From Dillenia suffruticosa (lineage: Eukaryota > Streptophyta > Magnoliopsida > Dilleniales > Dilleniaceae): DNA of 64,000 nt. Below are positions 1,046 through 59,300 of the stretch, one piece after another. The stretch's first letter is position 1. Every line of letters starts with the position of its first letter. The stretch covers positions 12,153,001 through 12,217,000 of the forward strand of contig JAVTVX010000026.1 in assembly GCA_033439265.1 (NCBI GenBank), in the 5' to 3' direction. A program made the position numbers and the translations under genes. The notes under the pieces are model-generated. The model worked only from the letters and a program-made list of their open reading frames with translations, ran no database searches and was not told where the DNA came from.

Positions 1046-1777
1046 TGTAATACCCAAATAAAAAAAAAAAAAGGAAAATTAAAAATTAGGGCTTAAAGCC
1101 CTAATTTTCTCCCCTCTCTCTCCCTCTCTCTTTCCCCCTCTCTTCTCTCCCTCTCTCTTTCCCTTTCCCATCTCCCCGCCGCCGCGTCTCTCTCTCTCCC
1201 GCTGCCATCCTCCACCGTGAAGATCGCCGCACGCCACCCACAGCCGCTGCGACTCCTCCCTTCCGCGAGTGAGCCGCTGCAGCTCCTCCCTGCACGAGCT
1301 GCCCGGTGTGAACGCGCGAGCTAGCACGCGATCTCCCTCGCGCGAGCGCGCGCGACCCTTCCTGCGCGAGCGCGAGCCCGAGCGCGCCTCACCCTGCACG
1401 CCACTGCACGCTCCTGCACGAGCGCCAGCGACCCCAGCGTGACCCCAGCGTGAGCAGAGCACGATCCAGCTCGCTAGCGCGCTCCAACGCCCGAGCCAGC
1501 GCCCGAGCCAACGCCCGAGCCAACGCGACCCAGCGTGTGACTCAGCGTGTGACCCAGCACGAGCCAGCGCCAGCGTGAGATCCGGCTCGCGAGGCCCACC
1601 AGGCCCGCAGACCCAGCAGCCCACAGGCCCACCAGGCCGCAGACCCAACAGCCCGCAGGACCAGCAGCCTGCAGGCCCCAGGCTCGTAAGCCCATTGCGG
1701 CCCACGGCCCACGGCCCACTGCGGCCCACGGCTCGCAGCCCGAGACGGCCTGTGACAGTCCGCGAGTCCCTGCGAAG

Positions 1778-3069
1778 GTAAAGAACTAAAAGTTTCGATT
1801 TTCGCACTATGGTTTTGAAATTCTATAGTAATTGGACTTAAATTGTTCACAATTGTTTCAAATTTGAAACATTCAGGTTTTAGACCAAATCGACGGGCGA
1901 ACGAAAGATAAATCTGAGATCCGAAGAATCCTAGGTGAGAGAAATGAAATCTCTTCAACCCTTGAATAAACTTTGTCAAATTAGGTAACATTAGTTGGTT
2001 TTAGATTCGAATTAAGATTTATTTTGATTTTGGTTATTTACTTATAAATAGAATGAAATTGGTGTTAGTGAAGTTTATAAATTGAGGAATTTAGGATTTG
2101 TACGAATTTAAGAAAAACGATAAACCCTGAAATAGTCGGAAATTGATAAAAATCGTGATGACTTGATTATGTTGGCTTTCTTGGTGACTCGATAGAGGGG
2201 AGCATTGTTTTACGTATTGTGGTTTTATTGGGGAGTGAGCTATCCTCCCCAAAAACGGTGAGTGAGATTTATTTCAATACTTTTGTTTAATATGTAAACT
2301 CTGTTTTACAACATTTTGATGAATGAGCATGATTTGTCGTATGCTTGAAATATTTTGACTGTTTTTAAAATTGATTTTTGTGAACCGATGGAGTGTCCAA
2401 AAAATGTGTTGAATTATGAAATTATGCATCCATGTGGTTAAAATGTATAATGTGCCATTTTATGCTAGATGTTGCATTTGATTTGTAAACCTGATTTCGG
2501 CACATTTTTATGCGATATTGATTTTAGCCTTGAGGGCTTTGGATTGTATTGTTCCGTAGCTACGAAGGACACCGTAAAAGACGCTTTGGTGGCGTCCGGA
2601 TATGCCTAGGCCTGGGGTATCCCACGAGTTGTCGTGATTTGATTATCGACACCGTACTAGCCAGGTTGAACCCGAAAGGGGGAGGATTTGGATTTGGATT
2701 GGATATCCTCTCCAAGTCTAGCACCTGGACGAGGTTCGTCGCCAACACCGGGGTAGAGAGCATTTTAAATAAACTTGTATATAACACCCCCGGTGCGCCT
2801 GTCATAGATCGCGGTAGACCTCTGCCAGGATATTTTCGGCTGGCAGCTCTGTGATTTTAATGACAGTGCTTTGGATGCATATTTGATTTGAAAATGCGTG
2901 AAATGATATATTGTTGAAATGAAAAGCATGATGATTTGAAATATAATTTATATACTTATGTTTTGACTAACTCCAATTTCACATTCCATATTTGACGATT
3001 GCATTGAGCCACTCACTCACTGAGTATTCTTCCCCGAGTACTCACCCCTTATTTTCCTTCTTGTTTCAG
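1778..3069 (+). promoter_or_regulatory. Predicted leader introns and small exons inside the LTR of A
   Basis: Splice-like signals occur in the order donor gaag/gtaaag (1778), acceptor attcag (1876), exon 2 of 58 nt (1877-1934), donor ctag/gtgaga (1935), an acceptor position (gattag in the 3' LTR at 10220, mutated to gattat here), exon 3, donor acg/gtgagtgag (2258), and a strong acceptor ending tgtttcag (3069). The last is preceded by a branch-like tactcac and a pyrimidine tract. Element C has the same exon lengths (58 and 87 nt) and B has the same 58-nt exon, although sequences have diverged. Splicing is inferred and no transcript was seen. Confidence 0.6.
2728..2795 (+). promoter_or_regulatory. 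Tandem hairpins with AATAAA in the second loop (LTR A, 5' copy)
   Basis: Hairpin 1 is gacga/tcgtc (2728-2740). The linker gccaa (2741-2745) follows. Hairpin 2 has arms caccgggg (2746-2753) and ccccggtg (2788-2795), separated by a 34-nt loop that contains aataaa (2768-2773). The same layout with different, compensated stems occurs in B, D and F. The position is compatible with the R region and poly(A) signal of the LTR. Function is inferred by analogy with lentiviral TAR and poly(A) hairpins. Confidence 0.7.
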
Positions 3070-3682
3070 AGATAGTGTTTGGCAAGGAGCGTTGCTTTAG
3101 GACGCTCAGTATCATTGGGTGATTTGACCTGAATCTGAGGAGTTATTGTATATTTCCGCTGCAATTTCGTGAGTTAGTAATTGTATTGGTGATGTATATG
3201 TATTATGAGATCGATAGACTAGCATTGTATAATTCTGGGATGACTGTATAAATATGGACATATCATTGCACAACATTGCATTGAGGTATTTCTGGTTCAT
3301 TGTGTAAGTACTTAGGAATATGTCATATCTTAGAAGTGTCCTCTAGGATCGCTCGGTGCCTCCTCTAAATCACAGAATGGGTGATTGGCGGCTGTCCATG
3401 CTTTTGATGGGGACATGGCAGTAGAGGTCTGTGGTTAGGTTGTTGGAAATTTTTATAACCTTGCGTTACCTGGATGTTGGTTGTGAGATTGGTTGATTTT
3501 GGAGAGGCCGGGATGGCCATTTGATTATACTACTGGATGATTGTGATTTATAGAGGGTAAATTGTACTTGGGAAACCTCCAAAATATGGGGAGGTTTTGT
3601 CCGATTTTCTGTAAAAATACAGCCGGCATTCAGGATAACGGGCAGCTGCTCACGATCCCAGTTCGGGGCGTGACTGTTGGAT

Positions 3683-9094: not shown

Positions 9095-11724
9095 TGTAAT
9101 ACCCAAATAAAAAAAAAAAGGAAAATTAAAAATTAGGGCTTAAAGCCCTAATTTTCTCCCCTCTCTCTCCCTCTCTCTCTTGCCCCCTCTCTTCTCTCCC
9201 TCTCTCTTTCCCTTTCCCATCTCCCCGCCGTCGCGTCTCTCTCTCTCCCGTTGCCATCCTCCGTCGTGAAGATCGCCGCGCGCCACCCACAGCCGCTGCG
9301 ACTCCTCCCTTCCGCGAGTGAGCCGCTGTAGCTCCTCCTTGCATGAGCTGCCCGGTGCGAACGCGCGAGCTAGCGCGCGATCTCCCTCGCGCGAGCGCGC
9401 GACCCTTTCTGCGCGAGCGCGAGCCCGAGCGCGCCTCACCCTGCACGCCACTGCACGCTCCTGCACGAGTGCCAGTGACCCCAGCGTAAGCAGCGCACGA
9501 TCCAGCTCGCGAGCGCGCTCCAGTGCCCGAGCCAGCACCCTAGCCAACGCGACCCAGCGCGCGACTCAGCGCGAGCCAGCGCGAGCGCGAGCGCGAGAGC
9601 GAGCGCGAGAGCGAGCGCGAGTGCTAGCGCGCTCCAGCGCGCAATCCGGCTCGCGAGGCCCACCAGGGCCGCAGACCCAGCAGCCCACAGGCCCACCAAG
9701 CCACAGACCCAGCAGCCCGCAGGACCATCAGCCCACAAGCCCCAGGCCCGCAAGCCCATTGCGGCCCACGGCCCACGGCTCGCAGCCCGAGACGGCCTAT
9801 GACAGTCCGCGAGTCCCTGCGAAGGTAAAGGACTAAAAGTTTCAATTTTCGCACTATGGTTTTGAAATTCTATAGTAATTGGACTTAAATTGCTCACAAT
9901 TATTTCAAATTTGAAACATTCAGGTTTTAGACCAAATCGACGGGCGAACGAAAGCTAAATCTGAGATCCGAAGAATCCTAGGTGAGAGAAATGAAATCTC
10001 TTCAACCCTTGAATAAATTTTGTCAAATTAGGTAGCATTAGTTGGTTTTAGATTCGAATTAAGATTTATTTTGATTTTGGTTATTTACTTATAAATAGAA
10101 TGAAATTGATGCCAGTGAAATTGTTTATAAATTGAGGAATTTAGGATTTGTACGAATTTAAGAAAAACGATAAACCCTGAAATAGTCAGAAATTGATGAA
10201 AATCGTGATGACTTGATTAGGTTGGCTTTCTTGGTGACTCGATAGAGGGGAGCATTGCTTTACGTATTGTGGTTTTATTGGGGAGTGAGCTATCCTCCCC
10301 AAAAACGGTGAGTGAGATTTATTTCAATACTTTTGTTTAATATGTAAACTCTGTTTTATAACATTTTGATGAATGAGCATGATTTGTCGTATGCTTGAAA
10401 TGTTTTGACTGTTTTTAAAATTGATTTTTGTGAACCGATGGAGTGTCCAAAAACTGTGTTGAATTATAAAATTATGCATCCATGTGGTTGAAATATATAA
10501 TGTGTCATTTTATGCTAGATGTTGCATTTGATTTGTAAACCTGATTTCGGCACATTTTTATACGATATTGATTTTAGCCTTGAGGGCTTTGGATTGTATT
10601 GTTCCGTAGCTACGAAGGACATCGTGAGAGACGCTTTGGTGGCGTCCGGATATGCCTAGGCCTGGGGTATACCACGAGTTGTCGTGATTTGATTATCGAC
10701 ACGGTACTAGCCAGGTTAAACTCGAAAGGGGGAGGATTTGGATTTGGATTGGATATCCTCTCCAAGTCTAGCACCTGGACGAGGTTCGTCGCCAACGCCG
10801 GGGTAGAGAGCATTTTAAATAAACTTGCATATAACACCCCCGGTGCGCCTGTCATAGGTCGCGGTAGACCTCTGCCAAGATATTTTCGACTGGCAGCTCT
10901 ATGATTTTAATGACAGTGTTTTGGATGCATATTTGACTTGAAAATACGTGAAATGATATATTGTTGAAATGAAAAGCATGATGATTTGAAATATGATTTA
11001 TATACTTATGTTTTGACACTCCAGTTTCACATTCCATATTTGATGATTGCATTGAGCCACTCACTCACTGAGTATTCTTCCCCGAGTACTCACCCTTCAT
11101 TTCCCTTCTTGTTTCAGAGACAGTGTTTGGCAAGGAGCGTTGCTTTTACGACGCTCAGTATCATTGAGAGATTTGACCTAAATCTGAGGAGTTATTGTAT
11201 ATTTCCGCTGCAATTTCGTGTGTTAGTAATTGTATTGGTGATGTATATGTATTATGAGATCGATAGACGACCATTGTATAATTCTGGGATGACTGTATAA
11301 ATATGGACATGTCATTGCACAACATTGCATTGAGACATTTCTGGTTCATTGTGTATGTACTTGGGAATGTATCATATCTTAGAAGTGTCCTCTAGGATCG
11401 CTCGGTGCCTCCTCTAAATCACAGGAGGGGCGACTGGCGGCTGTCCATGCCTTTGATGGGGGCGTGGTAGTAGAGGTTTGTGGTTAGGTTGTTGGAAATT
11501 TTTATAGTCTTGCGTTACCTGGATGTTGGTTGTGAAATTTGTTGATTTTGAAGAGGCCGGGATGGCCATTCGATTATATTACAGGATGATTGTGATTTAT
11601 ACAGGGTAAATTGTACTTGGGAAACTTCCGAAATATGGGGAGATTTTGTCTGATTTTCTATAAAAATACAGCCGGCATTCAGGATAATGGGCGGCTGCTC
11701 ACGATCCCGGTTCGGGGCGTGACA
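9095..11724 (+). repeat. 3' LTR of element A
   Basis: It is 2630 bp, tgtaataccc...gtgaca, and has the same order of blocks as the 5' copy. The palindrome lies at 9129-9155. The GC-rich block has a GCGCGA-type expansion (about 9570-9630) that is absent from the 5' LTR. The splice-like signals are better preserved here: donor 9825, exon 2 9924-9981 (58 nt), acceptor 10220, exon 3 10221-10307 (87 nt), donor 10308, acceptor 11117. Confidence 0.92.
10778..10845 (+). promoter_or_regulatory. Tandem hairpins with AATAAA (LTR A, 3' copy)
   Basis: Hairpin 1 gacga/tcgtc spans 10778-10790, with the gccaa linker next. Hairpin 2 arms are cgccgggg (10796-10803) and ccccggtg (10838-10845), with one G-T wobble. 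The 34-nt loop contains aataaa (10818-10823). In the 3' LTR this would be the active polyadenylation signal if the model is right. Confidence 0.68.
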
Positions 11725-12407: not shown

Positions 12408-14334
12408 TGTAACTCCGACACTCAGTGACCGAACAATGTATATTGATTTTGAGATATATATTCTTTAAAAAAAAAAAAGAGGAGGAAACGCCGCGTTTCG
12501 GCCTAAAACGCGACACTCCCTCCCCCTTGTCAAATTAGGGCTAAAAGCCCAAATCTGTTTCTCTCTCTCCCTCTCTCTCGCTCTTTCTCTTTCTCTCTCC
12601 CCTACCCTTCACCTCCCGCGGCCGCCGCCCTACTCCGTGGCTGTTTCGTGCCTCTCCGTCGCGATCCGCCACCACCCAACGACCATCGCCACCGTTCTCT
12701 CTCTCTCTACCTCATCACGGCCTCCCTCTCAATTTCTCTCTCTCCATTGTTCACTCTCTCTCGCGATCTCCCTCTCAGTCACCTCCGCCGCGCGCCACCA
12801 CAGCGAGCTCACCAGCACGGGACAGCGCCAGAGCGCCTGACAGCGCAGAGCACTACGCGCTTCCCAAGCACGAGCGCTAGCATGCTCCTGCGTGAGCCAG
12901 CGTGCCCCTGCGCGAGCGCTAGCGCGCCCCTGCACGCCTCTACACGAGCCCCTGAACGCCTATGCACAAGCCAACGTGCCCCTACACGAGCGCCAGCGCA
13001 CCCCTGTGCGCCCCTGCATGAGCGCCAGCACGCCCCAGCATGAGCTACCCTATGCGAGTGTGCCCCCAGCGTGACCCTCCGCGCGAGCGCAGTGCGCGAT
13101 CTCCCGCGAGCTGCGCGATCCCTGCACAAGCACGAGCGTGCCCCAATACGAGCGCGAGCATGCTCCAACGCGCGACCCACTGCGCGAGCGCATGACCCAC
13201 TGCATGAGCACGTGATCCAGCTCGCGAGCTCGAGCCCTAGCCCGTGAGGGCTCCAGCCCGCGTGCCCCAGCCGCGAATGCACAGCTCGCGAGCCTACTGC
13301 GACCTGCTGACCCGCGAGCCCTCCAGCGGGCCAGCCCGCCAGTCCAACGGCCCACGAGCCCGCGACCGGCTTTCTCCTTTGAGAGCCATCTGTCATCCTC
13401 GCAAAAATCCTTCACTGCAAGTAACGGCTGTGTTAGATATGGTTTTGTATTATAAATTGATTTAGTCGCTAACGTGGTTTCAAAATTGAATATATTACAG
13501 GTTTTAAATGTATCTGATGGGCGAACGAAAGCCAGGTTTGAGATTCGAGCAAACCTAGGTGAGGGAAATGAAATTATTTCCATACTTAAATTTAATTTGG
13601 TCGAATTTATGTTGAATTTAGAATCGGAAATCATATATATATATATGTTGTTGGGGCTTAAAATCGATATTTAAATCTTTAGAACATGTGGTTAAATGTG
13701 CAGAAATTATGGTATATATTTATAAATTGAAGAATTTAGGCTTGTACGAAATTAAGGAAAATGATAAACCCTAACAATAGTCGAAATTTTGATAAAAATC
13801 GTGATAATTTGATTAGGTTGGCTTTCTTGGTGATTCGATTGAGGAGAGTTTTGATTTTACGTGTTGTGGTTTTATTGGAGAGTGCGTTATCCTTCCCAAA
13901 TCTGTGAGTGGGATTTATTTCAATACTTTTGTTTAATGTGTAAACCCTATTTTAACATATTTGATAAATGAGCATGATTTGTATTTGACTGGTTTTGAAA
14001 TTGATTTTTGTGAACCGATGGAGTGTCCAAAACTGTGTTGAAATATTGAAATTATACATCTATGTGGTTGAACTGTATAATGTGTCATTTTATACTATAT
14101 GTTGCATTTGATTTGTGAACCTGATTTTGGAACATTTTGATACGATTTTGGATTTGGCCTTGAGTGTTTTGGTATGTATTGTTCCGTAACTACGAAAGAT
14201 ACCGTGAGAGACGCATTAGTGGCATCCAGATATGCCTAGGCGCAGGGTATCCCACGAGTTATTGTGATTTTTATTAATGACACTGTACTAGTCAAGTTGA
14301 ACACGAAAGGGGGAGGATTTGGATACTCTCTCTA
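12408..14334 (+). repeat. 3' LTR of element C, first part
   Basis: It starts tgtaactccg. An A-rich and then CT-rich block (12550-12600) precedes a GC-rich block (12600-13380). Splice-like signals match element A: acceptor tattacag ending 13500, exon 2 13501-13558 (58 nt), donor gtgagg, acceptor gattag ending 13816, exon 3 13817-13903 (87 nt), donor gtgagtggg. The LTR is cut at 14334 by element B and resumes at 24745. The cut lies inside the predicted third intron. Confidence 0.87.
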
Positions 14335-15146
14335 TGTCACGCCCTAAACCGGGATCGTGAACAGCCGCCCGTTGCCCCTGAATGCCGGCTGTATTTTTAC
14401 AGAAAATTGGGCAGAATCTCCCCAAAAATCGGAGGTTTCCCGTGTACAATTATACCTGTATGATCAAAATCATCCTGTACAATACACAAATGGCCATCCC
14501 GGCCTCTCCAAAATCAACAAACACCACAGCCAACATTCAGAACAACGTAAGGCTATAAACAAACCTAGCCACAGACCTCTACTGTCATGCCCAACTAGAG
14601 CATGAGCAGCCACTATACCGAGCGGATCTAAGTTTATACAATATATATCACATTTCCCAAGTAACGTTCAAGTACGTACAATCGTCTCAATGCAAATGAA
14701 ATATGAGAGTTAAACTATATAGTCATCCCAAAATAAGTACATGGCCAACTACGGATCTCAATGTCAAGACCTCGCAGGGTCGAAACTAAATTAGAAGTAA
14801 ATCTCACCGTCAGAACAACAAATCCGCACTAGAGCCTGTAACGCCGCTCTATCACAATCAACCTGTCTGAGGAGGGAAAAGAGAGGGGTGAGTATCATGG
14901 GAAGATACTCAGTGAGTGAGGGGGGTAATATCAAGCATAAATAGTATAAGTGAACAATTGGAGTGTCAAATAATATCATTTGAAACAAAAATTTACATTT
15001 CGCAGCAAAACATGATATATTTATCAATTTGAAATCATTTAATCAAACACGCGATAGCAAGCATGTATACATCCATTTAAAATCAAGTAATGTTAGAGCG
15101 AGCCAAAAATAGTCCTGGCAAAGGTCAACCATGACCAAGGACAGGC

Positions 15147-15227
15147 ACGTCGGGGGTTTTATTATGTATAGACTTTGAAACGCTCTCTACCCCGACGTTG
15201 GCCATGAGTTCGCTGGGGTCAACTCAT
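15147..15227 (-). promoter_or_regulatory. Tandem hairpins with AATAAA (LTR B, left copy)
   Basis: On the minus strand, hairpin 1 has arms atgagtt/aactcat (15204-15227) with a 10-nt loop, followed by the gccaa linker. Hairpin 2 arms are acgtcgggg (15190-15198, minus) and ccccgacgt (15147-15155, minus), a perfect 9-bp stem. The loop is 34 nt (15156-15189) and contains aataaa (plus 15158-15163). The stem bases differ from A yet pair fully. Confidence 0.72.
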
Positions 15228-16319
15228 CAACGTGTATAGGACCCCGCCCGGTGCTAGACGGTGGCGTTACACACGTCCTCCCCCTACGTGGGTTCAACCG
15301 GCCGCGCCTATAGGCTTTAGAATAAATGACGTTTGCGGATACCTCCTGCAGAAGCGTATCCGGGCAACCCGTGCCTCTACAAACGCCCCTCGTAGCTACG
15401 GAATCATCATAGTATCACAAGGGCACAACGTCCCATAGTATCACAAGGGCACAACGTCCCACAAGTATCACCACATCATCACATAACTAGTGGGCATCCA
15501 ACCCACGTAGTTCATCAAAAACATTTTAAATTTGCGTACCAATACGTCTCTTCAATTCATTTCAAAACAGCATATCAATGCAACGGTATAAAATGAAATT
15601 TATACATTTTCAAGTAATGGCACAATTATTATTTCATTTCAAACCATGGATGCATAGTCATTGTAAATATAATTCAAGACACTCCAATAATCACAAAACA
15701 GTTTTGAAATTCAATATCATACGTCAAACGAATGCATATCAAAGCATGTTTTATCGAAAACACGACAGAAAACACGTTTTACTATTTTATGCAAGAGATT
15801 AGAGTTTCACTCACTTATTTAGGGAGGGTGGTCACTCCCTACTTTTCAACGACTCTCCAAAAGACAAACCTAATTAAATTATCAAATTTTTATATCATAT
15901 AAAACCCTAATAAGGGAAAATTTATTCACACTATGAAGTGAGTGCATTTCTCTCACCTAGAGTTCCTCGGGTTTCAGACCTAGCTGTCGTTCGCCCGTCG
16001 GATTGGTCTAAAACCTGTAATTGTTTCAAATTTCAATTACATTAGAAACAACTAAATTTCTAACACCAAACCCTAGAATTTCAACCAAATATAGTCGTTA
16101 CCTACAGTATAAAAGATGCAGGTGAGCTCTCGAAGGGGAAAGCCGGTAGCTGGCTCGCGGGCCGTCACGGGCTCGCGGGCCGGTGGGCTGGCTGCTAGCG
16201 GGCTGGCCCGCTGGTGGCTCATGGGCTCTCAGCCCGGCTTGCTGGCTGCAGCGACTTCGTGGGTTTGCAATGGGCCGCGGCTGGACTGGGCCTTGGGCCG
16301 CTGGTGGGCTGGCCCGCTC

Positions 16320-16560
16320 ATGGGCTAGGGCTCGCGCTGGGTCGCGAGCTGGGTCGCGCGCTGGTACACGCTGGGTCGCGAGCTGGGTCGCGCGCTGGCA
16401 CGGGCTGACTCGCGCTGCGTCGCGCGCTGGCACGGGCTGGCTCGCGTGCTGGCACGGGTTGGCTCGTGCTGGTTCACGCGCTGGCTCATGCTGGGTCGCG
16501 TGCTGGCTTGCGCGCTGGCTCGCAGGAGATCTCGTTGGCTCGAGCAGGGGTAGCACGCTG
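16320..16560. repeat. GC-rich minisatellite in LTR of B (left copy)
   Basis: Imperfect repeats of the type ctgggtcgcgagctgggtcg and gcgctggcacgggctggctc make this stretch extremely GC-rich within an otherwise AT-rich element. The right LTR has the corresponding block at about 24180-24400 with a different internal arrangement. It produces long spurious open frames rich in Ala, Arg, Gly and Ser on both strands. Confidence 0.8.
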
Positions 16561-16770
16561 GCCCGCGCTGGGTGTCGTGCTGCTCGCGGGAGATCGCACG
16601 AGTGCGCACTGTGCAGGAGGTGAGGCGCTGCTCACTGGCTGACCGCACGCTCGTGTGAGGAGGGAGGAGGCGCTGCAGCAGCGGGGATCGCGGGAGAAAG
16701 GTGGAGCAGTGGGCGGCGTGCGGTGGCAGGAGAGAGGCCGCGGCGGAGAAGAGAAAGAGAAAGAGGGAAA

Positions 16771-16807
<37 letters not shown>

Positions 16808-16881
16808 AAGAAGAATTAGGGCTTTAAGCCCTAATTTTGACTTTTTTTTTTTTTTGACTTTTTTTTTTTTTAAGTGTTACA

Positions 16882-22195: not shown

Positions 22196-24636
22196 TGTCG
22201 CACCCTAAACTGGGATCATGAACAGCCGCCCGTTGCCCCTGAATGCCGGCTGTATTTTTACAGAAAATCGGGCAGAACCTCCCCATAAATCGGAGGTTTC
22301 CCGTGTACAATTATACCTGTATGATCAAAATCATCCTGTACAATACACAAATGGCCGTTCCGGACTCTCCAAAATCAACAAACACCACAGCCAACATTCA
22401 GAACAACGCAAGGCTATAAACAAACCTAGCCACAGACCTCTACTGTCATGCCCAACTAGAGCATGAGTAGCCGCTATACCAAGCGGACCTAAGTTTATAC
22501 AATATATATCACATTTCCCAAGTAACGTTCAAGTACGTACAATCGTCTCAATGCAAATGAAATATGAGAGTTAAACTATACAGTCATCCCAAAATAAGTA
22601 CAAGGCCAACTATGGACCTCAATGTCAAGAGCTCGCAGGGTCGAAACTAAATTAGAAGTAAATCTCACAGTCAGAACAACAAATCCGCACTAGAGCCTGT
22701 AACGCCGCTCTATCACAATCAACCTGTCTGAGGAGGGAAAAGAGAGGGGTGAGTATCATGGGAAGATACTCAGTGAGTGAGGGGGTAATATCAAGCATAA
22801 ATAGTATAAGTGAACAATTGGAGTGTCAAATAATATCATTTGAACAAAAATTTACATTTCGCAGCAAAACATGATATATTTATCAATTTGAAATCATTTA
22901 ATCAAATACGCGATAGCAGGCATGTATGCATCCATTTAAAATCAAGTAATGTCAGAGCGAGCCAAAAATAGTCCTGGCAAAGGTCAACCGTGACCAATGA
23001 CAAGCGCATCGGGGGTTTTATTATGCATAGACTTTGAAACGCTCTCTACCCCGACGTTGGCCATGAGTTCGCTGGGGCCAACTCATTAACGTGTATAGGA
23101 CCCCGCCCGGTGCTAGACGGTGGCGTCACACACGTCCTCCCCCTACGTGGGTTCAACCGGCCGTGCCTATAGCCTTTAGAATAAATGACGTTTGCGGATA
23201 CCTCCTGCAGAAGCGTATCCGGGCAACCCGTGCCTCTACAAACGCCCCTCGTAGCTACGGAATCATCATAGTATCACAAGGACACAACGTCCCAGGGCAC
23301 AACGTCCCACAAGTATCACCACATCATCACATAACTAGTGGGCATCCAACCCACGTAGTTCATCAAAAACATTTTAAATTTGCGTGCCAATACGTCTCTT
23401 CAATTCATTTCAAAACAGCATATCAATGCAACGGTATAAAATGAAATTTATACATTTTCAAGTAATGGCACAATTATTGTTTCATTTCAAACCATGGATG
23501 CATAGTCATTGTAAATATAATTCAAGACACTCCAATAATCACAAAACAGTTTTGAAATTCAATATCATACGTCAAACGAATGCATATCAAAGCATGTTTT
23601 ATCGAAAACACGACAGAAAACACGTTTTACTATTTTATGCAAGAGATTAGAGTCTCACTCACTTATTTAGAGAGGGTGGTCACTCCCTACTTTTCAACGA
23701 CTCTCCAAAAGACAAACCTAATTAAATTATCAAAATTTTATATCATATAAAACCCTAATAAGGGAAAATTTATTCACACTGTGAAGTGAGTGCGTTTCTC
23801 TCACCTAGAGTTCCTCGGGTTTCAGACCTAGCTGTCGTTCGCCCGTCGGATTGGTCTAAAACCTGTAATTGTTTCAAATTTCAATTATATTAGAAACAAC
23901 TAAATTTCTAACACCAAACCCTAGAATTTCAACCAAATATAGTCGTTACCTGCAGTATAAAAGATGCAGGTGAGCTCTAGAAGGGGAAAGCCGGTAGCTG
24001 GCTCGCGGGCCGTCACGGGCTCGCGGGCCGGTGGGCTGGCTGCTAGCGGGCTGGCCCGCTGGTGGCTCACGGGCTCTCAGCCCCGCTTGCTGGCTGCAGC
24101 GGCTTCGTGGGTTTGCAATGTGCCGTGGCTGGACTGGGCCTTGGGCCGCTGGTGGGCTGGCCCGCTCACGGGCTAGGGCTCCCTCTGGGTCGCGAGCTGG
24201 GTCGCGCGCTGGCACTCGCTGGGTCACGAGCTGGATCGCACGCTGGCATGGGCTGGCTCGCGTGCTGGCATGCGCTGGGTCGCGAGCTGGGTCGCACGCT
24301 GGCACAGGCTGGCTCGCGCTGGTTCGCGCGCTGGCTCGTGCTGAGTCGCCTGCTGGCTTGTGTGCTGGCTCGCACGCTGGCTCGCGGGAGATCGCGTTGG
24401 CTCGAGCAGGGGTAGCACGCTGGCCCGCGCTGCGTGTCGTGCTGCTCACAGGAGATCGCACGAGTGCGCACTGTGCAGGAGGTGAGGCGCTGCTCACTGG
24501 CTGACCGCGCGCTCGTGTGACGAGGGAGGAGGCGCTGCAGCGGCGGGGATCGTGGGAGAAAGGTGGAGCAGTGGGTGGCGTGCGGTGGCGGGAGAGAGGC
24601 CGTGGCGGAGAAGAGAAAGAGAAAGAGGGAAAGAGG

Positions 24637-24667
<31 letters not shown>

Positions 24668-24739
24668 GTAAGAAGAATTAGGGCTTTAAGCCCTAATTTT
24701 GACTTTTTTTTTTTTGACTTTTTTTTTTTAAGTGTTACA
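22196..24739 (-). repeat. 5' LTR of element B (right copy)
   Basis: It is 2544 bp. Minus-strand signals are: palindrome 24676-24698; donor gcag/gtaacg at 23949; acceptor attacag (23863); exon 2 23805-23862 (58 nt); donor gtgaga; acceptor taattag (23718); exon 3 23663-23717 (55 nt); donor gtgagtgag (23662); acceptor ccctcctcag (22728). The palindrome cgtagctacg is at 23250-23259. Confidence 0.92.
23006..23086 (-). promoter_or_regulatory. Tandem hairpins with AATAAA (LTR B, right copy)
   Basis: This is the same block as in the left LTR. Hairpin 1 atgagtt/aactcat is intact (23063-23086). Hairpin 2 has two decayed base pairs in its outer stem (gcatcgggg against ccccgacgt), and the loop with aataaa (plus 23017-23022) is kept. 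Confidence 0.62.
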
Positions 24740-24744
24740 CTCTA

Positions 24745-25711
24745 AGTCTAGGACCTGAACGAGGTTCGTCGCCAACGCCGGGGTAGAGAGCACTTTAAAT
24801 AAACTTGCATATAATACTCTCGGTGCGCATATCATAGGTCGCGGTAGACCTCTACCAGGATATTTTTTGCTGGCAGCTCTATGATTTTTAGTGACAGTGA
24901 TTTGAATACATATTTGACTTGAAAATGAGTACTAATGATATATTATTGAAATGAAAAGTATGATGATTTGAAATATGATTCATATACTTATACTTTAATA
25001 CTCCAGTTTCACATTTCATACTTGACGATTGTATTGACCTACTCACTCACTGAGTATTCTTCCCCAAGTACTCACCCCTCATTTCCCTTATTGTTTCAGA
25101 GATAGTATTTGACAATGAGTGTTGCTTTAGGACGTTGGTATCATTGGGAGATCTGGTTTGGAGTTGAGAAGTTATTATATATTTCTGCTGTAAATTTGTA
25201 TTGGTAATATATATGCATTCTGAGATTTATAGACGACCATTGTGTAATTCTGGAATGACTGTATAAATATGGACATTTAAATTATGGAACTCTCATGTCA
25301 TTGCATAACATTGCATCGAGGCATTTCTTATTCGTTGCGTATGTACTTGGGAATGTGTTATGTTTTAGAAGTATACTTAAGGATCGCTCGGTGCTACTTC
25401 TAAATCACAGGAGGGGCGATTGGCGGCTGTCCATGCCTTTGACGGGGGCATGACAGTAGAGGTCTGTGGCTAAATTGTTGGAAATTTTTATAACCTTGCG
25501 TTATTCTGGACGTCGGCTATGGGATTGGTTGATTTTGGAGAGATCGGGATAACTATTTGATTATTTTACAGGATGATTATGATTTATACATGATTAAGTG
25601 TAATTGGGAGACCTCCGAAATATAGAGAGATTCTATCCGATTTTCTATAAAAATACAGCAGCCATTTAGAATAACGGACGACTGTTCACGATCCCGATTC
25701 GGGGCGTGACA
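24745..25711 (+). repeat. 3' LTR of element C, second part
   Basis: It resumes after element B at agtctagg. Hairpin 2 of the tandem block is partly preserved (cgccgggg with tctcggtg, allowing G-T pairs), with aataaa at 24798-24803. The predicted acceptor ends attgtttcag at 25099. The LTR ends gtgaca at 25711. Confidence 0.87.
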
Positions 25712-26615: not shown

Positions 26616-27864
26616 ATGGAAACAAAGAAACCAGCAGAATCCATTACCATGACCGGCGGAGAAGGCCAATACAGCTATGCCAAGAATTCAGCGTTTCAGG
26701 CTATTTCTCTTCTTTCTACTTTAACCATCTCAGAAAATTCGAGATCATCCATTTAGAGGAGCTACACTTCAAGCTCCCAATTACATCTAATAGCTGACCA
26801 TGGTACTATACCGTTCTGACAATCGAATTGGCACACATGGCACCGTGATTGGCCATGAATTTGAGACATTAAATCATATTGTTGACACATACAATGCGTT
26901 CAAACTTGAAGTAACCAAGTTTCTCTCAAATTCAAAAGTGTTCAAAATTTCAGATTTAGGTTGTTCAGTAGGACCTAATACCTTCATTGTTGTCCAAAGT
27001 ATTATTGACGCTGTCAAGCGTAAGAGCAAGAGGGAGGACCTAAACCCTGGAAGTATTGAATTCCAAGTCCTCTTTAGCGATCTGGTTTCCAATGACTTCA
27101 ACACTCTCTTCAGGTCCCTTCCAGAAAGGCAATACTTTGCTGCTGCAGTACCGGGTGCCTTCTATGTCCGCTTATTTCCTGAAGGTTCACTGCATTTTGT
27201 TCATGCCTCGTATGCTCTCCAATATCTCTCTGAAATTCCGAAAGAAATTCTTGACAAAAACTCTCCAGCCTGGAATGGTGGAAGGATTCATTATTCTAAA
27301 AAGGAAGTTCGAGAAGCTTACTCGGCTCAATATGCTAAGGACATGGATCTGTTTCTGAGTGCCAGATCAAAAGAGATCATCCCTGAAGGGTTCTTAGCTG
27401 CTCTCATTCCAATTCCCCATGTTGGTGATGGCCCTTTTGATGCTTTTCAATCTTGCTTGATAGACATGGCCAAAGAGGTAATCTTCAGATTATATTAAAG
27501 AAATTGAAATATAATATTTATATCAGGATAATGCTATTTATCAGGTTCAATAGTGACCATAGTTTTTTTCAGGCTGATGTGGCAATCTGTAATTTGTTAC
27601 CACATACAAAAAACTGGTCATTTCATTAATATGTATGTCACAACCAATGACAACTTGACAAATCCGACCACGAGAAATTCAAAGCCAACTCTGGCCATGA
27701 CCCATGAAAGAGAGCATTTTCCATTTACGCCCTTTTTTTTTAATCTAATTGTGGTTGCTTTTCCCCTCTGTATATTGTTTTCGGACCTTTTTGTATTCAA
27801 GGGATTACTTGAAGAGGATAAAGTGGACTCCTTCAACTTATCCATGTTTAGCAACTGTCAGTAA
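26616..27864 (+). pseudogene. Truncated SABATH-family carboxyl methyltransferase gene
   Basis: SABATH enzymes transfer a methyl group from S-adenosylmethionine to small carboxylic acids or N-heterocycles. Exon 1 begins METKKPAES and contains the hallmark MTGGEGQYSYAKNSAFQ. The next exon (open to 27477) has the SAM-binding ISDLGCSVGPNTF (26947-26985), then PGAFYVRLFPEGSLHFVHAS and PKEILDKNSPAWN. A donor gag/gtaatc lies at 27478. A third exon starts after ttcaag at 27802 with GLLEEDKVDSFNLSMF, then hits TAA at 27862. About 190 bp between the YAKNSAFQ motif and the start of homology (26700-26890) does not match the family and has stops. The C-terminal quarter of the usual ~360-residue protein is missing. 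It is the only host gene I recognise, and probably a pseudogene. Confidence 0.82.
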
Positions 27865-34615: not shown

Positions 34616-35026
34616 TGTAATATTTATAATTGATTTTGTTTTATTTTTGAATAAATATTATACTAATATTTATATTTTGTAATATTTGATATGTTAGGAT
34701 TGATAAATGAGGCTTATCAAGGAAAGTAAAAAAAAATGAGGTAAATTGGAGCAATTATTATACAAAGAATGAAAAATTGGATAGTAATACTCTTTTATTA
34801 GTATGTAGGCACGCGAATCATGATAGCTATTGCAGAATTTTCTGGAAGCCAAGTCAACAATATTCTTTTATTGTGTGGACCAAAATTCAAGGAAATTTGA
34901 ATATAATTTGAATATATTGAAGATTTTGTTCCATTCCTAATATTTAGAGATAAAAAATTTTATTTGAAATTTTTTAGGATATTATTTTTTAGGAGTTTTT
35001 CATTCTTTAAAATAAATGAAAATAAT
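34616..35026 (+). repeat. Athila-type LTR G, left part
   Basis: From tgtaatattta it aligns with the 5' LTR of element E (57839 on), for example aattggagcaatta and tcctaatattta. It is cut by element D at 35027 and resumes at 45564. No Athila internal sequence accompanies it, so it looks like a solo LTR inside copia element H. The exact left edge is uncertain by about 18 bp. Confidence 0.7.
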
Positions 35027-37661
35027 TGTAAAGCCGGACCCCAAAGTTTTTTTATACAAATGTATTGTATCTTATGCGGTGAATTTTGATAGTGTAAATT
35101 TAATTTAAGAAGTTTCATGAGGCTTATGATAGAAGCCTTAAATAGCTTCTAAGAGAAACTTCTTTAAGTTTATAAAGAAAGTTTCAGGTGGCTTCTGAAA
35201 GAAGCTTTAGGTAGCTTCCAAGAGAAATCTCAGGAGACAAGATATATATGCTTCAAGGGAAGCTTGGAAGTAAGAACTTAAGGTAAGATCTTGAGTAGAG
35301 AAGTTGAGAGAAACTTGAGGCAATAAGACTGAGAGAAAAGGGAGAGAGGGAGAGAGAGAGAGAGAGAGCACTTTTCTTCTCCCTAATTTACGAGTTCCCC
35401 ACTTCTCTCCCACAAAACCATCTCAAATTTTATCAAAATCAACATCAAAACTTGAAATAACCTATTTCCATCAATATATACCATATGCACAACCTCTAGA
35501 AAGCATCAAATGGTGTAAAAAACCTCTAAATTAAGCTAAAAATATTGAGAGAACAAGAGGGCCGGGAAAGCAAAAATGAGAAGTGAATTTTGAGAAATTA
35601 TGATTTTAAGTTCTTGTTTATCATAAAAATCATGGTGAACAACATGTCTGGTGATCTGAACATAGGAGTATATAGGTGAGTTAGAACAAAGATAGAATTT
35701 TTGAGTTTTTGTGAATAGAATATTCTGACCATATTTTAATTTTTTGGCTATAACTTTCTCTACACAAAGGCAATTCATGTGCAGTTTTTTGCATATAAAA
35801 CTAGACTTTCATACCTTGAAAATGAGATATGATTTGTTAAAATCTGATAAAAATTGGATTTTTAGTGATTTTTTAAAGTGGGGCATTCTGCAGAATAATC
35901 TCTTGTTTCTGTCCTGTTTCGGTTGAGACTTTTGTTCGATTTTGAAATGCCTTCTAGACTAAATTAGATTAAGCTATGAAAATAATATTTTTAGAACTAT
36001 ATCTTATTTTTAATTTGAGATAATAATTATGTAATTTGGATGTGTGTAAGGAAAGTTACAACCATTTTTCCATAACTGCATAGATTGGAAATTATGCAAT
36101 TAAGATAACATATGATAGATTCACATGTCCTTATGTAATAGGAATAGAATTAAGCTATAAACATAAAAATTGTGGTTTTATATCTAGTTTTTAAGTGAAA
36201 AATAGAAGTTTGAAAATTCAAGAATATTAGTTTAAAGTACAATTATTTTTCTAAAATATGAAAATATAGAAATAAAGTTTAAATAAGGTTAATGAAAGTA
36301 TTGGATGAAAAGATACATTTTCCCTTTTGCATATGAGTATTTAGCTTCATAGTAGCTTTGAATAAGTATCTAATCTCGATTCTATATTGTGATCTATACA
36401 ACTAGGCGAAGGTCTTTCGAACAAGAATAGGCTTGAGAACAGGATTAATGGGAGTGCACACCCTCCTCAAACTGTGAGTGAGACTTTTATGTTTTGTTGA
36501 TGAAAATTGTTTTATGTGTTTTGAAAAACTTATTTTGAAATGTGGTTTTATAATTGAATTTGAGTGTGATGTATTCTTTTAAAATAATAATGTTGAAAAT
36601 ATTTGTCACATGATTTACCTTACTTTGTTGATTGAGGTTTATCGAGACAAAAATGTAAATGAGTTACAAGTTGGTTTTGAAATTTATTTATGAATGAAAA
36701 TAATTTTTTTAGTGACCAATTGCCCTTGCAACTACTATAGTTTATTGCTTACTCATGACCGACTGGAGAAAGAGCGATATGAGTGGAACCGGGTTTTTGG
36801 ATTGGGGTAATATGATGCAGGGCATTAACCTACCTAAGGTTACGGTTGGGCAGTCATAAGTCACCCATGGTGATGTCTAAGCCAACACCAAGGATGAAAC
36901 ACATTTAGAAAAATGAATGAATAAAACCCTTGGTGGATCTATTCCTTGACCTCGACCACGATCTTGGATTGAAAAATATATTTTTCAGTAGTCCCAAAGT
37001 TTTGAATGAAATACAACCCATTGGATCCAAAGACAAACATATTATTTTGCATACATTGATTGTTAATGTTTTCTGAATATTTTGTGAACTTGTGAATATT
37101 TTTGTAATGATTAAACGAAACTTGTCATTAATGATTTTAGGACATGATTACACTCACTCATTGGCATGTATATAGATTTCTCACTCACTGGGTACATTTG
37201 TACTCATCCCATTCTTTCTCTCATATTTTCAGATTGATAGATAACAAGTACAGATAGAGGGCTTTCTTTTCGAAATCTTTGAGACCTATTTTGGTTGGAA
37301 CACTTCATGCAAAATAGTCTCATTTTGGGTTATGTAGTTGTAGATGGATCCATGTGATAGGTCAATGGAAGCTGTATTATGTTATATTATGGATTGTTTG
37401 TATAAGTTTTAATACTTTTGTATATGTACATCTTTATTTTGTTTAGTTACTTGTAGATAAGTCATAGAAACTTTGCTTATTTTATTTTGAAGGAAATTCT
37501 ATGGTTGATAATTTATGATTATGGAGAATTGTATGAGTACAAAGTCTAGGTTGATAATAGGTTAGCCTTGTGGGGTCTTGGAGTGCGTGGCCGGGGATGC
37601 ACATAGTTCGAAGCAACACAGCGGTTGTCACGTACTCGGTTTTGTGGACTGGCGCGTGACA
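35027..37661 (+). repeat. 5' LTR of element D
   Basis: It is 2635 bp, tgtaaagccg...gtgaca. It has repeated agcttc/gaagc words (35100-35240), a GA microsatellite (about 35338-35368), predicted exon 3 36406-36473 between acceptor actag and donor gtgagtgag (36474), and an acceptor atattttcag ending 37232. The tandem hairpins lie at 36861-36935. Confidence 0.9.
36861..36935 (+). promoter_or_regulatory. Tandem hairpins with AATAAA (LTR D, 5' copy)
   Basis: Hairpin 1 is tcacc/ggtga (36861-36873). The gccaa linker is at 36881-36885. Hairpin 2 is caccaagg (36886-36893) and ccttggtg (36928-36935), a perfect 8-bp stem with a 34-nt loop that contains aataaa (36920-36925). In the 3' LTR the block is at about 44755-44830, with one C to T change that keeps a G-T pair. 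Confidence 0.72.
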
Positions 37662-42853: not shown

Positions 42854-42890
42854 ATTTCGAGAATGAAATTTTTTTTATAGGGGTAAAAAT
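42854..42890 (+). promoter_or_regulatory. Pre-PPT hairpin and polypurine tract of element D
   Basis: The motif atttcgagaatgaaat (42854-42869) pairs as atttcg/tgaaat with one G-T, shifted in sequence from gtttcg/cgaaac of B. The purine tract ataggggtaaaaat runs to 42890. Confidence 0.72.
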
Positions 42891-45563
42891 TGTAAAGCTG
42901 AACCCCAATGTTTATTTATACAAATGTATTGTATCTTGTATGGTGAATTTCAGTAGTGTAAATTTAACTCAAGAAGTTTCATGAACTTTTGAGAGAAGCT
43001 TCAAGGATGGCTTCTGAGAGAAGTCTCAAATAGCTTCCAAGATAAACTTCTTTAAGCTTATAGAGAAAACTTCAAGTGGTTTCTGAGAGAAGTTTCAAAT
43101 AGCTTCCAAGAGAAGCCTCAGGAGACTATATATATAAGCTTCAAGGGAACCTTGGAAGTAAGAACTTAAGGTAAGAGCTTGAGTAGAGAAGTTGAGAGAA
43201 ACTTGAGGCAATAAGACTGAGAGAAAAGGGAGAGAGAGAGAGAACACTTTTCTTCTCCCTAATTCATGAGTTCCTTACTTCTCTTCCACAAAACCATCTC
43301 AAATTTCATCAAAATCAATATCCAAACTTGAAATAACCTATTTCCATCTATGTATACCATATACACAGTCTCTAGAAAGTATCAAATTATGTAAAAAAAA
43401 TCTTTAAATCAAGCTAAAAACATTGAGAGAACAAGGGGGCTAGGAAAGCAAAAATGAAAAGTGAAATTTGAGAAATTCTTGAACCAAGTCCAGGGTAAAA
43501 TTTATATTTCTGATTTTAAGTTCTTGTTTATCATAGAAATCATGGTGAACAACATATTTGATGATCTGAACATAGGAGTATATGGGTGAGTTAGAACAAT
43601 GATAGAATTTTTGAGTTTCTGTAAATAGAATATTCTGACCATGCTATAATGTTTTGGCTATAACTTTCTCTGTACAAAAGCAATTCATGTGAGGTTTTCT
43701 ACATATGAAGCTAGACCTTCGTACCTTAAAAATGAGATATGATTCGTTAAAATCTGATAAAAATTGGATTTTTAGTGATTTCAAAATAATCCCTTGTTTC
43801 TGCCTAGTTTTAGCTGAGACTTTTATTCGATTTTGAGAAACCTTTTGGGTTGAATTAGGTTAAACTCTAAACATAACATTTTTAAATCTATATCTTATCT
43901 TAATTTGAGATAAGAATCATATGATTTGGATTTACGTAGTGAAAGTTACAACCATTGTCCCATGACTGCACAGATTGGAAATTATGCAATTAAGATAACA
44001 TAAGATAGATTCACATGTCCTTATGTCATTAGAATAGATCTAAGTTATATACATAAAAATTGTGGTTTTATGTCTAGTTTTTAAGTGAAAAACAGTAGTT
44101 TGACAATCCAAGAATACTAGTTTAAAACACAATTATTTTTCTAAAATATGAAAATATAGAAATGAAGTTTAAATAGGGTTAATGAAAGTATTGGACAAAG
44201 AGATACATTTTCCCTTTTGCATATGAGTATTTAGTTTCATAGTAGTATTGAATAAGTGTTTAATTTTAATTTTATATTGTGATCTATGTAATCAACTAGG
44301 CAAAGGTCCTTTGAACAAGGATAGACTTAAGAACCAGAATTAATGGGAGTGCACACCCTCCCCAAACTGTGAGTGGAACTTTTATGTTTTGTTAATGAAA
44401 AATATTTTATGCGTTTTGAAAATTTTATTTTGAAATATAGTTTTATAATTCAATTTGAGTATGATGTATTCTTTTGAAATAATAATGTTAGAAATGTTTG
44501 TCAAATGATTTACTTTACTTTGTTGATTGAGGTTTATCGAGACAAAGATATGAATGAATTGTAAGTTGGTTTTAGAATTTATTTATAAATGAAAACAATG
44601 TTTTTGGTAACTGATTGTCTATGCAGCTGCTATGGTTATTGCTCACTCATGACCGGCTGGAGGAAGAAAGGTATGAGTGGAATCGGGTTTTTGGATTGGG
44701 GTATTGTGATGCAGGACATTAACCTACCCAAGGTTATGGTTGGGCAGCCATGAGTCACCCATGGTGATGTCCAAACGAACACCAAGGATGGGACACATTT
44801 AGAAAAATGAATGAATAAAACCTTTGGTGGATCCATTCCTTGACCCTAGCCAAGGTCTTGGATCGAAAAATATGGTTTTTAGCAGTCCCAAAGTTTCGAA
44901 CGAAATGCAACCTATTGGATGCAAAGACAAACATATTATTTTGCATATATTGATTGTTATTGCTTTATGAATATTTTGTAAACTTGTGAATATTTTTGTA
45001 ATGATTAAATGAAACTTATCGTTAATGATTTTAGAACATGATCATACTTCTACTCATTGGCATGTATATAGATTTCTCACTCACCAGATACATTTGTACT
45101 TATCACATTCTTTCTCTTCTATTTTTAGGTTGGTAGATATTAAGTACAGATAGATGGCCCTCTTCTGGAAATTTTTGAGATCCATTTTGGTTGAAGTCAT
45201 ACACTTTATGTAAGATAGTCACATTTTGGACTCATGTAATTATAAATGGATCTAAGGGATAGGTAAATGAAAGCTGTATTATGTTATATTATGGATTGTT
45301 TGCATAAGTTCTAATACTTTTGTATATGTACATCTTTATTTTAATTAGTCACTTATAGATGAGTTATGGGAACTTTACTTATTTTATTTTGAAGGGGATT
45401 TTATGGTTGATGATTTATGATTATAGAGAATTGTATGAGCACAAAGTCAAGGTTGATAACAGATTATCCTTGTGGGGTCTTGGAGTATGTGCCCGAGATT
45501 GCACGTAGTTCAAGGAAACACGGCGGTTGTCTCGTGTTTGGTTTTGAGGACTGGGGTGTGACA
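42891..45563 (+). repeat. 3' LTR of element D
   Basis: It is 2673 bp, tgtaaagctg...gtgaca, and clearly diverged from the 5' copy, so D is fairly old. Near its start (42973-43096) it holds three GAAnnTTC words, one of which extends to GAAgtTTCatGAA. Confidence 0.9.
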
Positions 45564-59242: not shown

Positions 59243-59300
59243 ACGGTGTTGATAGATTTATTTCTTTTAAAATTTTACTTTCATATTTTTTTTTTGGTAT

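Follow-up and report, generated by a model that had tools for sequence, protein, structure and literature searches.

A covarying hairpin and a structured acceptor-like site in the long LTRs of Tekay-like chromoviruses from Dillenia suffruticosa

The long terminal repeats (LTRs) of chromovirus-type retrotransposons in a 64,000-nt stretch of Dillenia suffruticosa DNA (the window, by which we mean the whole of that stretch) carry a hairpin with an 8-bp stem, GCCAA ahead of it, and a loop of 32-40 nt with an A-rich end. An RNA-like paired element of this form has been kept across diverged LTRs, as its arms co-vary between families, and we regard it on these comparative grounds as an RNA element conserved in the LTRs of Tekay-like chromoviruses. 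Downstream lies a structured acceptor-like site, which together with the candidate introns of the LTR is a larger find than the hairpin itself. Because the hairpin sits between donor-like sites and this acceptor-like site, its nearest context is splicing, and we put forward a hypothetical mechanism in which it would mark the unspliced RNA.

Elements of the window and copies sampled

Self-comparison and protein matches indicate that nested Ty3/Gypsy elements are present in the window. Element A (forward strand) has LTRs at 1046-3674 and 9095-11723 that are 92% alike, element B (reverse strand) has its 5' LTR at 22196-24739 and its 3' LTR at 14335-16881, 95% alike and with the target duplication TAGAG, and element D (forward strand) has LTRs at about 35021-37661 and 42885-45563 that are 84% alike. 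The LTR of element C is interrupted by B, which inserted within it 31 bases upstream of the GCCAAC of C (window 14324-14345, 24735-24760), and A is nested in the internal region of C. Element F is represented by an LTR around 53124, and element G, from about 58394, is distinct from the others. The primer site TGGTATCAGAGC, which we take to be a match to the initiator methionine tRNA, adjoins the 3' side of the 5' LTRs in A, B, and D. Pfam matches comprise gag, RVT_1, RNaseH, and Integrase_H2C2 in A and gag, RVT_1, RNaseH, and SH3_Tf2-1 in B. The integrases of A and D have, in a by-eye reading, a chromodomain-like C-terminal ending; a chromodomain match was absent from the single piece of B scanned by Pfam, which stops inside that stretch. 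The clade name Tekay is our presumption, taken from a preliminary description of this DNA and from known motifs.

A borderline Rfam match to the plant snoRNA R71 (59853-59959, reverse strand; 40.6 against a cut-off of 40) falls within the gag frame of G (59271-60566, forward), and the RT region of G contains an identical 169-base direct repeat (62434-62602 and 62609-62777). An open frame at 26794-27498 (forward) with a SAM-dependent carboxyl methyltransferase domain (Methyltransf_7, E 3.7e-62) is likely a piece of a host gene between elements. A protein encoded by the LTRs was considered and rejected: four stop-to-stop frames of 200-247 aa overlap them with no accepted Pfam match (three had none at E up to 1, and one fell below the cut-off at E 0.079), and the only sense-strand frame among them, that of B, was rejected as coding since it is of low complexity and free of methionine.

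From the 596 Mb source genome, in which the window spans bases 12153001-12217000 of one contig, we sampled seven A-like loci besides A itself (96-97% alike), the 200 kb after and the 40 kb before the window, and 18 D-like stretches, those ranked 23rd to 40th among the 40 matches listed, the last chosen by similarity, which favours conserved letters. Further copies were yielded by a profile of the hairpin core, and L171 and a second L169 copy (L169b) were located via the acceptor motif described below. The table of 26 copies used here leaves out L159, which is A5 itself, and the 18 D-like stretches. Elsewhere, a protein query found no relative in viral contigs. A DNA pattern scan returned 41 viral stretches and at least 117 prokaryote-genome stretches, whose half-to-half gaps cluster at 26, 29, 32, 35, 38, 41, and 44, a spacing of three as in coding DNA; the 25 most AT-rich of them, the ones inspected, were unlike the LTR copies, and all these loci were dropped. 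The viral and genome contigs gave no plant copies in scans whose DNA pattern was too loose and which could miss them.

A paired element that varies between families

The preliminary description reported two tandem hairpins, the second preceded by GCCAA, in diverged LTRs of the window. The second hairpin (hairpin 2) is real, and with its GCCAA it is present in eight LTR copies in A, B, C, D, and F. Five were found by pattern, in the 5' LTR of A (2741-2795, forward; stem CACCGGGG/CCCCGGTG, 34-nt loop), the 3' LTR of A (10791-10845, forward; CGCCGGGG/CCCCGGTG, one G-U pair), the 3' LTR of B (15148-15202, reverse; CGTCGGGG/CCCCGACG), the 5' LTR of B (23007-23061, reverse), and the 5' LTR of D (36881-36935, forward; CACCAAGG/CCTTGGTG), and three by profile, in the LTR of C (24771-24826, forward), which B splits just upstream, in the 3' LTR of D (44776-44830, forward), and in F (53124-53177, forward; seven of eight pairs, AATAAA absent). 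The pattern GCCAACRYCRRGG-loop-CCYYGRYG has five matches in the window and none in any of 100 shuffles, and as these matches are homologous copies they amount to one shared feature and not to five independent ones. The "five diverged LTRs" first reported need qualification: the hairpin is in all five, but A and C are 81.7% alike over their 3' parts in the self-comparison and hence close relatives, so that about four families are represented.

Hairpin 2 is a conserved island amid otherwise differing LTR sequence. The identity of A and B is 0.75 in the 100-base segment at 2746, which holds the hairpin, compared with 0.24-0.61 in the segments from 1996 to 2696; further peaks lie at 1846 (0.82, putative exon 2) and 2946-2996 (0.63-0.64, the acceptor), and identity is 0.73-0.85 from 3396 to the LTR end. 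Over 2600-3120 no Rfam covariance model matched at E up to 1. The stem letters vary among A, B, D, and F yet pair, as the preliminary description had it, and the compensated stems are C(G/A)CCGGGG/CCCCGGTG in A, CGTCGGGG/CCCCGACG in B, CATTGGGG/CCCCAATG in L169, CACCAAGG/CCTTGGTG in D, and CGCCAAGG/CCTTGGTT in F. Among the 26 copies all eight pairs are formed in 17, seven in four, six in three, and five in one, and the remaining row has two pairs. That row is L169b, entered one base out of register in a table whose script set the 3' arm by letters and not by pairing, and it accounts for the single 37-nt loop. The loop, which had been described as a constant 34 nt, has that length in all eight window copies but in only 17 of the 26 overall (36 nt in four, 40 nt in two, and 32 nt in two) and in two of 20 copies of the D family. 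The preliminary description had held that variable loop lengths elsewhere would tell against a conserved element, and such variation does occur in part, over 32-40 nt in the 26 copies and 33-39 nt in the D family.

Covariation, the lack of which in a larger alignment had likewise been said to tell against the element, is above shuffles between families and not within the D family alone. In a 21-copy alignment 84.5% of 168 base-pair cells are paired, against 39-57% with the arms slid (an earlier count on 16 copies gave 91.4%), both sides have changed in five of the eight pairs, and the covariation score of 0.469 compares with 0.305 in shuffles, none of 500 being as high. Two of the five measures were not above shuffles, namely how many pairs have changed on both sides (142 of 500) and how many further pair types occur (304 of 500), and the both-side changes are in all but one cell transitions, the kind that passes through G-U. 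Since the shuffle test is inflated by relatedness among copies, each family was also represented by a single arm pair: over seven families 53 of 56 positions are paired and 26 of 5040 whole-arm permutations are as good or better, and over five families two of 120 are as good. Within the D family (20 copies) 142 of 160 cells are paired against 140.8 in shuffles (306 of 1000 as high), and sliding the arms leaves 47-89 of 160. Single-copy folding of hairpin 2 is modest, with z scores of -1.6 in A, -2.9 in B, -1.1 in L169, -5.1 in D, -1.2 in F, and +0.3 in L190.

The first hairpin, which lies at 2728-2740 in A (forward; GACGA/TCGTC, loop 3) and is weak there, was also put forward as conserved, and of that claim rather less is left. 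A stem of the same length arises in a fraction of 0.003 of the shuffles for B and 0.007 for L169, the only copies in which hairpin 1 stands above shuffles, and in 0.31 for A, 0.90 for C, 0.25 for D, 0.09 for F, and 0.16-0.55 for L168, L170, and L175. The RNAalifold consensus of the eight window copies contains hairpin 2 only, and L187 has lost hairpin 1 and kept hairpin 2. The TCACC/GGTGA stem of the D family has 93 of 100 cells paired, with both-side changes in two cells and 117 of 1000 shuffles as good, and appears as TCATC/GATGA in L206 and L213 and in a G-U form in L210. Hairpin 1 is thus a possible conserved element.

A structured acceptor-like site and candidate introns

An acceptor-like site, more strongly conserved than hairpin 2, lies downstream of it, with 311-354 nt from the GCCAA to the acceptor AG. 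In the 5' LTR of A (3014-3069, forward) it consists of CACTCA, a hairpin TGAGTATTC/GAGTACTCA, a branch-site-like CTCAC, a pyrimidine tract, and CAG. The corresponding sites are at 11062-11117 in the 3' LTR of A (forward), 22728-22779 in the 5' LTR of B (reverse; TGAGTATC/GATACTCA), 14867-14918 in the 3' LTR of B (reverse), 25044-25099 in the LTR of C (forward), 37182-37232 in the 5' LTR of D (forward; TGGGTAC/GTACTCA), and 53387-53435 in F (forward; TGAGTATA/TATACTCA). A strict pattern has seven matches in the window and none in any of 100 shuffles. A loose one (CACTCACTGRGTAY, short loop, TACTCAY, pyrimidine-rich tract, AG) is found in 20 of 21 copies, the site was seen by eye in the 21st, L169, and L171 and L189 have it as well; L168, L170, and D3 have altered forms, L170 being without CTCAY. 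Pairing of the stem is 99.2% in 16 copies (with 4 of the 128 cells left out as gaps) compared with 22-49% when slid, and its forms include TGAGTATC/GATACTCA, TGGGTAC/GTACTCA, TGAGTATT/AATACTCA, and TGAGTATA/TATACTCA. Here, too, the number of pairs changed on both sides (174 of 500) and that of further pair types (497 of 500) were not above shuffles, and the folding z scores are -4.7 in A, -4.7 in B, -6.6 in F, and -2.8 in D. The acceptor AG is by construction the first AG past the branch-like site, and its distance from the branch-like A is 23-27 nt in 19 of 20 rows and 16 nt in L170. The CTCAC in the 3' arm is positioned and spaced as we would expect of a plant branch site. Read from its letters, the whole would make a conserved 3' splice site with a branch site and a pyrimidine tract.

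Upstream of hairpin 2, at 732-1367 nt, a donor TAG-GTGAG (the hyphen in such motifs marks the junction) is present in 18 of the 22 copies examined. It is absent in F, L167, and L170, and D3 has TGG-GTGAG; in D5, L189, and L169 it is farther away (1176-1367 nt), so some of the donors may be coincidence. In A (forward strand) these sites delimit a putative leader of exon 1 (1106-1777, its start assumed just after the palindrome described below), intron 1 (1778-1876, 99 nt and U-rich), exon 2 (1877-1934, 58 nt, preceded by CAG and ending in CCTAG-GTGAGAG), and intron 2 (1935-3069, 1135 nt), which contains hairpin 2. T makes up 14% of exon 1 and 19% of exon 2 but 38% of intron 1 and 35% of intron 2, shifting at the proposed junctions. 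Intron 1 has a donor-like start, AAG-GTAAAG in A and CAG-GTAACG in B5, and the putative 58-nt exon of the 5' LTR of B is at 23805-23862 (reverse). CAG followed by exactly 58 nt to the donor occurs in 12 of 19 copies (A5, A3, six A-family loci, B5, B3, L175, and L187), eight of the 12 belonging to the A family, although L175 and A have few letters of this exon in common. The length is 57 nt in L160, 59 nt in L169, and 60 nt in L168, L176 has CAA in place of CAG, and no recognisable 58-nt exon was found in D5, D3, or L189 among the 19 copies. Putative exon 1 of A is C-rich, low in T, and without ATG, and the leader stretch of A5, A3, B5, and B3 contains 0-3 ATG against 5-6 expected and 3-5 on the opposite strand, with 28-33 in intron 2. 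No first exon was recognised in D and F, though the acceptor and hairpin 2 are common to both.

A query joining exons 2 and 3 found no intronless copies, the 40 scored of 2944 candidates each matching one exon, and no LTR without the intron is present in about 330 kb of local sequence. This fits the copying of unspliced RNA only and fits equally well with no splicing. Intronless copies are expected to be scarce under the proposal set out below, to which the outcome of the joined query nevertheless lends no support.

Other features of these LTRs concern their ends. The LTR start in A and B is A-rich, followed by the palindrome TTAGGGCTTAAAGCCCTAA (1086-1104 in A, forward; likewise at the start of the 5' LTR of B) and a long CT run, and is promoter-like. 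TATA-like sites occur at several places in the LTRs, and none was singled out as the start site; TATAAATA at 3247 (forward), which A and C share some 500 bp past the hairpin and which aligns with TATA- in B, is possibly a second promoter, as in BARE. An inverted repeat AAACCTCC...GGAGGTTT (3573-3597, forward) towards the 3' end of the LTR of A, with a similar one in B, is possibly a further leader hairpin close to the primer site.

Proposed role of the hairpin and alternatives

We propose, at a confidence a little short of even, that hairpin 2 lies in a 1.1 kb intron of the LTR leader and marks the unspliced RNA. Specifically, transcription from near the 5' end of the LTR would give a leader with two introns in A- and B-type LTRs, and hairpin 2 would be inside the second, of about 1.1 kb, which would end at the structured acceptor. 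Splicing would produce an mRNA without hairpin 2, while the hairpin would be kept in the unspliced RNA, the sole form that could regenerate a full LTR; the unspliced RNA must be the copied template, as otherwise the LTR would shrink. The acceptor hairpin, which encloses the branch-like site, may keep splicing partial, for which retroviral acceptors offer an analogy. On the unspliced RNA hairpin 2 would act as a sorting mark for a genome fate, be it retention, export, or packaging, much as retroviral signals for genome RNA lie between the splice donor and gag. If hairpin 2 is in the unspliced RNA only, it probably helps to decide the fate of that RNA. The more general form of this proposal, to which we assign a lower probability and which is accordingly tentative, is that plant chromoviruses have in their long LTRs a spliced leader gene, transcribed from close to the start of the LTR and losing two introns by way of an exon of about 58 nt and a folded acceptor that limits splicing, with an intronic hairpin that marks genome RNA.

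The preliminary description had likened the two hairpins to the TAR and poly(A) hairpins of lentiviruses and placed them in the R region. That analogy does not stand as worded, given that AATAAA has no fixed place in the loop and is often missing and that hairpin 1 is weak, and no observation puts the hairpin in an R region, its context being that between donor-like and acceptor-like sites. AATAAA is indeed in the loop of A, B, C, and D, as reported, but its distance ahead of the 3' arm differs, the start being at 20 nt in A and C and at 8 nt in B and D, and two positions mean that it is not one homologous signal. A control of polyadenylation, in which the A-rich end of the loop would serve as the near-upstream element of a poly(A) site in the LTR and its use in the 5' or the 3' LTR would be set by the stem, or by intron splicing as a competing process, is nevertheless a live rival, if an unlikely one, because AATAAA is present in 20 of 20 copies of the D family. 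In that family no stretch is kept better than the loop end AATGAATAAAAC (0.963 identity versus 0.80-0.94 in the other stretches measured), B has its AATAAA placed as in D, and the loop end is A-rich in most families. Overall, however, AATAAA is inside the loop in 13 of the 26 copies and absent from the other 13, among them F, L168-L171, L189, and L190 as well as four of the seven near-identical A-family loci, where L161, L162, L165, and L166 have AAAGAAA and L160, L163, and L164 have AATAAA. The other position of AATAAA in A and C also speaks against this rival, and polyadenylation ahead of a conserved acceptor would call for some rule by which the site is skipped.

The splice-like signals might instead belong to an RNA other than the leader, either a separate spliced noncoding RNA of the LTR or one spliced from upstream into the 3' LTR, with the hairpin incidental. 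We consider this quite improbable, although putative exon 3 of A shows no shortage of ATG (14 and 15 against 13.6 and 13.4 expected), which leaves a simple scanned gag leader unexplained, and the second TATA-like site at 3247 would suit such an RNA. Against it, the hairpin forms an island of its own in the comparison of A and B (0.75), unlike incidental sequence. Marginally less probable still is a DNA element, an inverted repeat for a dimeric regulator within a promoter or enhancer of the LTR. The conservation in sequence of GCCAA and of the arm ends would agree with it, as would TATAAATA, some 500 bp past the hairpin in A and C, TATAAA-type sites in B, and the precedent of palindromic motifs near the LTR promoters of Sireviruses (PMC2829016). 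The arms, however, change in step instead of keeping a site, their spacing varies over 32-40 nt, and the most frequent pairing at the second position is G-U (8 of 21 copies, with A-U in seven and G-C in one), which is unpaired in DNA. That the paired arms are a functionless accident inherited in neutral decay is very improbable, for while old copies drop pairs (to five of eight in L189 and six of eight in L170, L171, and L176) and within-family covariation is not above shuffles, the between-family compensation, the slid-arm controls, and the conservation peak all oppose it.

Known systems and significance

Like the TAR and poly(A) hairpins of HIV-1 (PMC2645353), the LTRs described here have two adjoining hairpins in the repeat of a retroelement, with AAUAAA within the second in some families; unlike in HIV-1, AATAAA is not fixed and not in all families, hairpin 1 is weak, the loop spans 32-40 nt, and there is a candidate intron. 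BARE1 (PMC3735527) is likewise a plant LTR retrotransposon, with spliced and unspliced RNAs of different fates, but BARE is Ty1/copia and spliced in gag, whereas the elements here are Ty3/Gypsy with putative introns in the LTR. Partial or alternative splicing also gives different RNAs in Ogre and EVADE (EVD) (PMC6317226, PMC12786077), where the introns are in the coding region and not, as is putatively the case here, in the LTR; a 2025 review names these two as notable exceptions among plant LTR elements, which are generally without introns (PMC12786077). Sirevirus LTRs also have conserved dyad motifs, in the form of repeated short CGG-CCG palindromes upstream of the TATA of a copia element (PMC2829016), while here one long-loop covarying hairpin with arms 32-40 nt apart was found per LTR. 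Retroviral packaging of unspliced RNA (PMC7599994) resembles our proposal in that a structured RNA is on the unspliced genome only; there is no homology with hairpin 2, and a packaging role for it is putative.

The LTR models of Benachenhou 2013 excluded plant Metaviridae because their LTR length was too variable (PMC3601003), and Tekay was absent from the expressed set in sunflower direct RNA (PMC7730604). The parts available of PMC2829016, PMC3735527, PMC7730604, PMC6317226, and PMC12786077 make no mention of an LTR leader intron or of this hairpin. The preliminary description had regarded the hairpin as previously undescribed, and we found no description of it in the open-access papers searched.

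The structure of the long LTRs of such elements is little described, although elements of this kind make up much of many a plant genome. Named, testable sites in these LTRs would be provided by an intronic hairpin together with a conserved, structured acceptor, sites that bear on how the RNA for translation is kept apart from the RNA for reverse transcription. If the general form of the proposal is true, a way of sorting genome RNA from messenger RNA like that of retroviruses would have evolved separately in plants.
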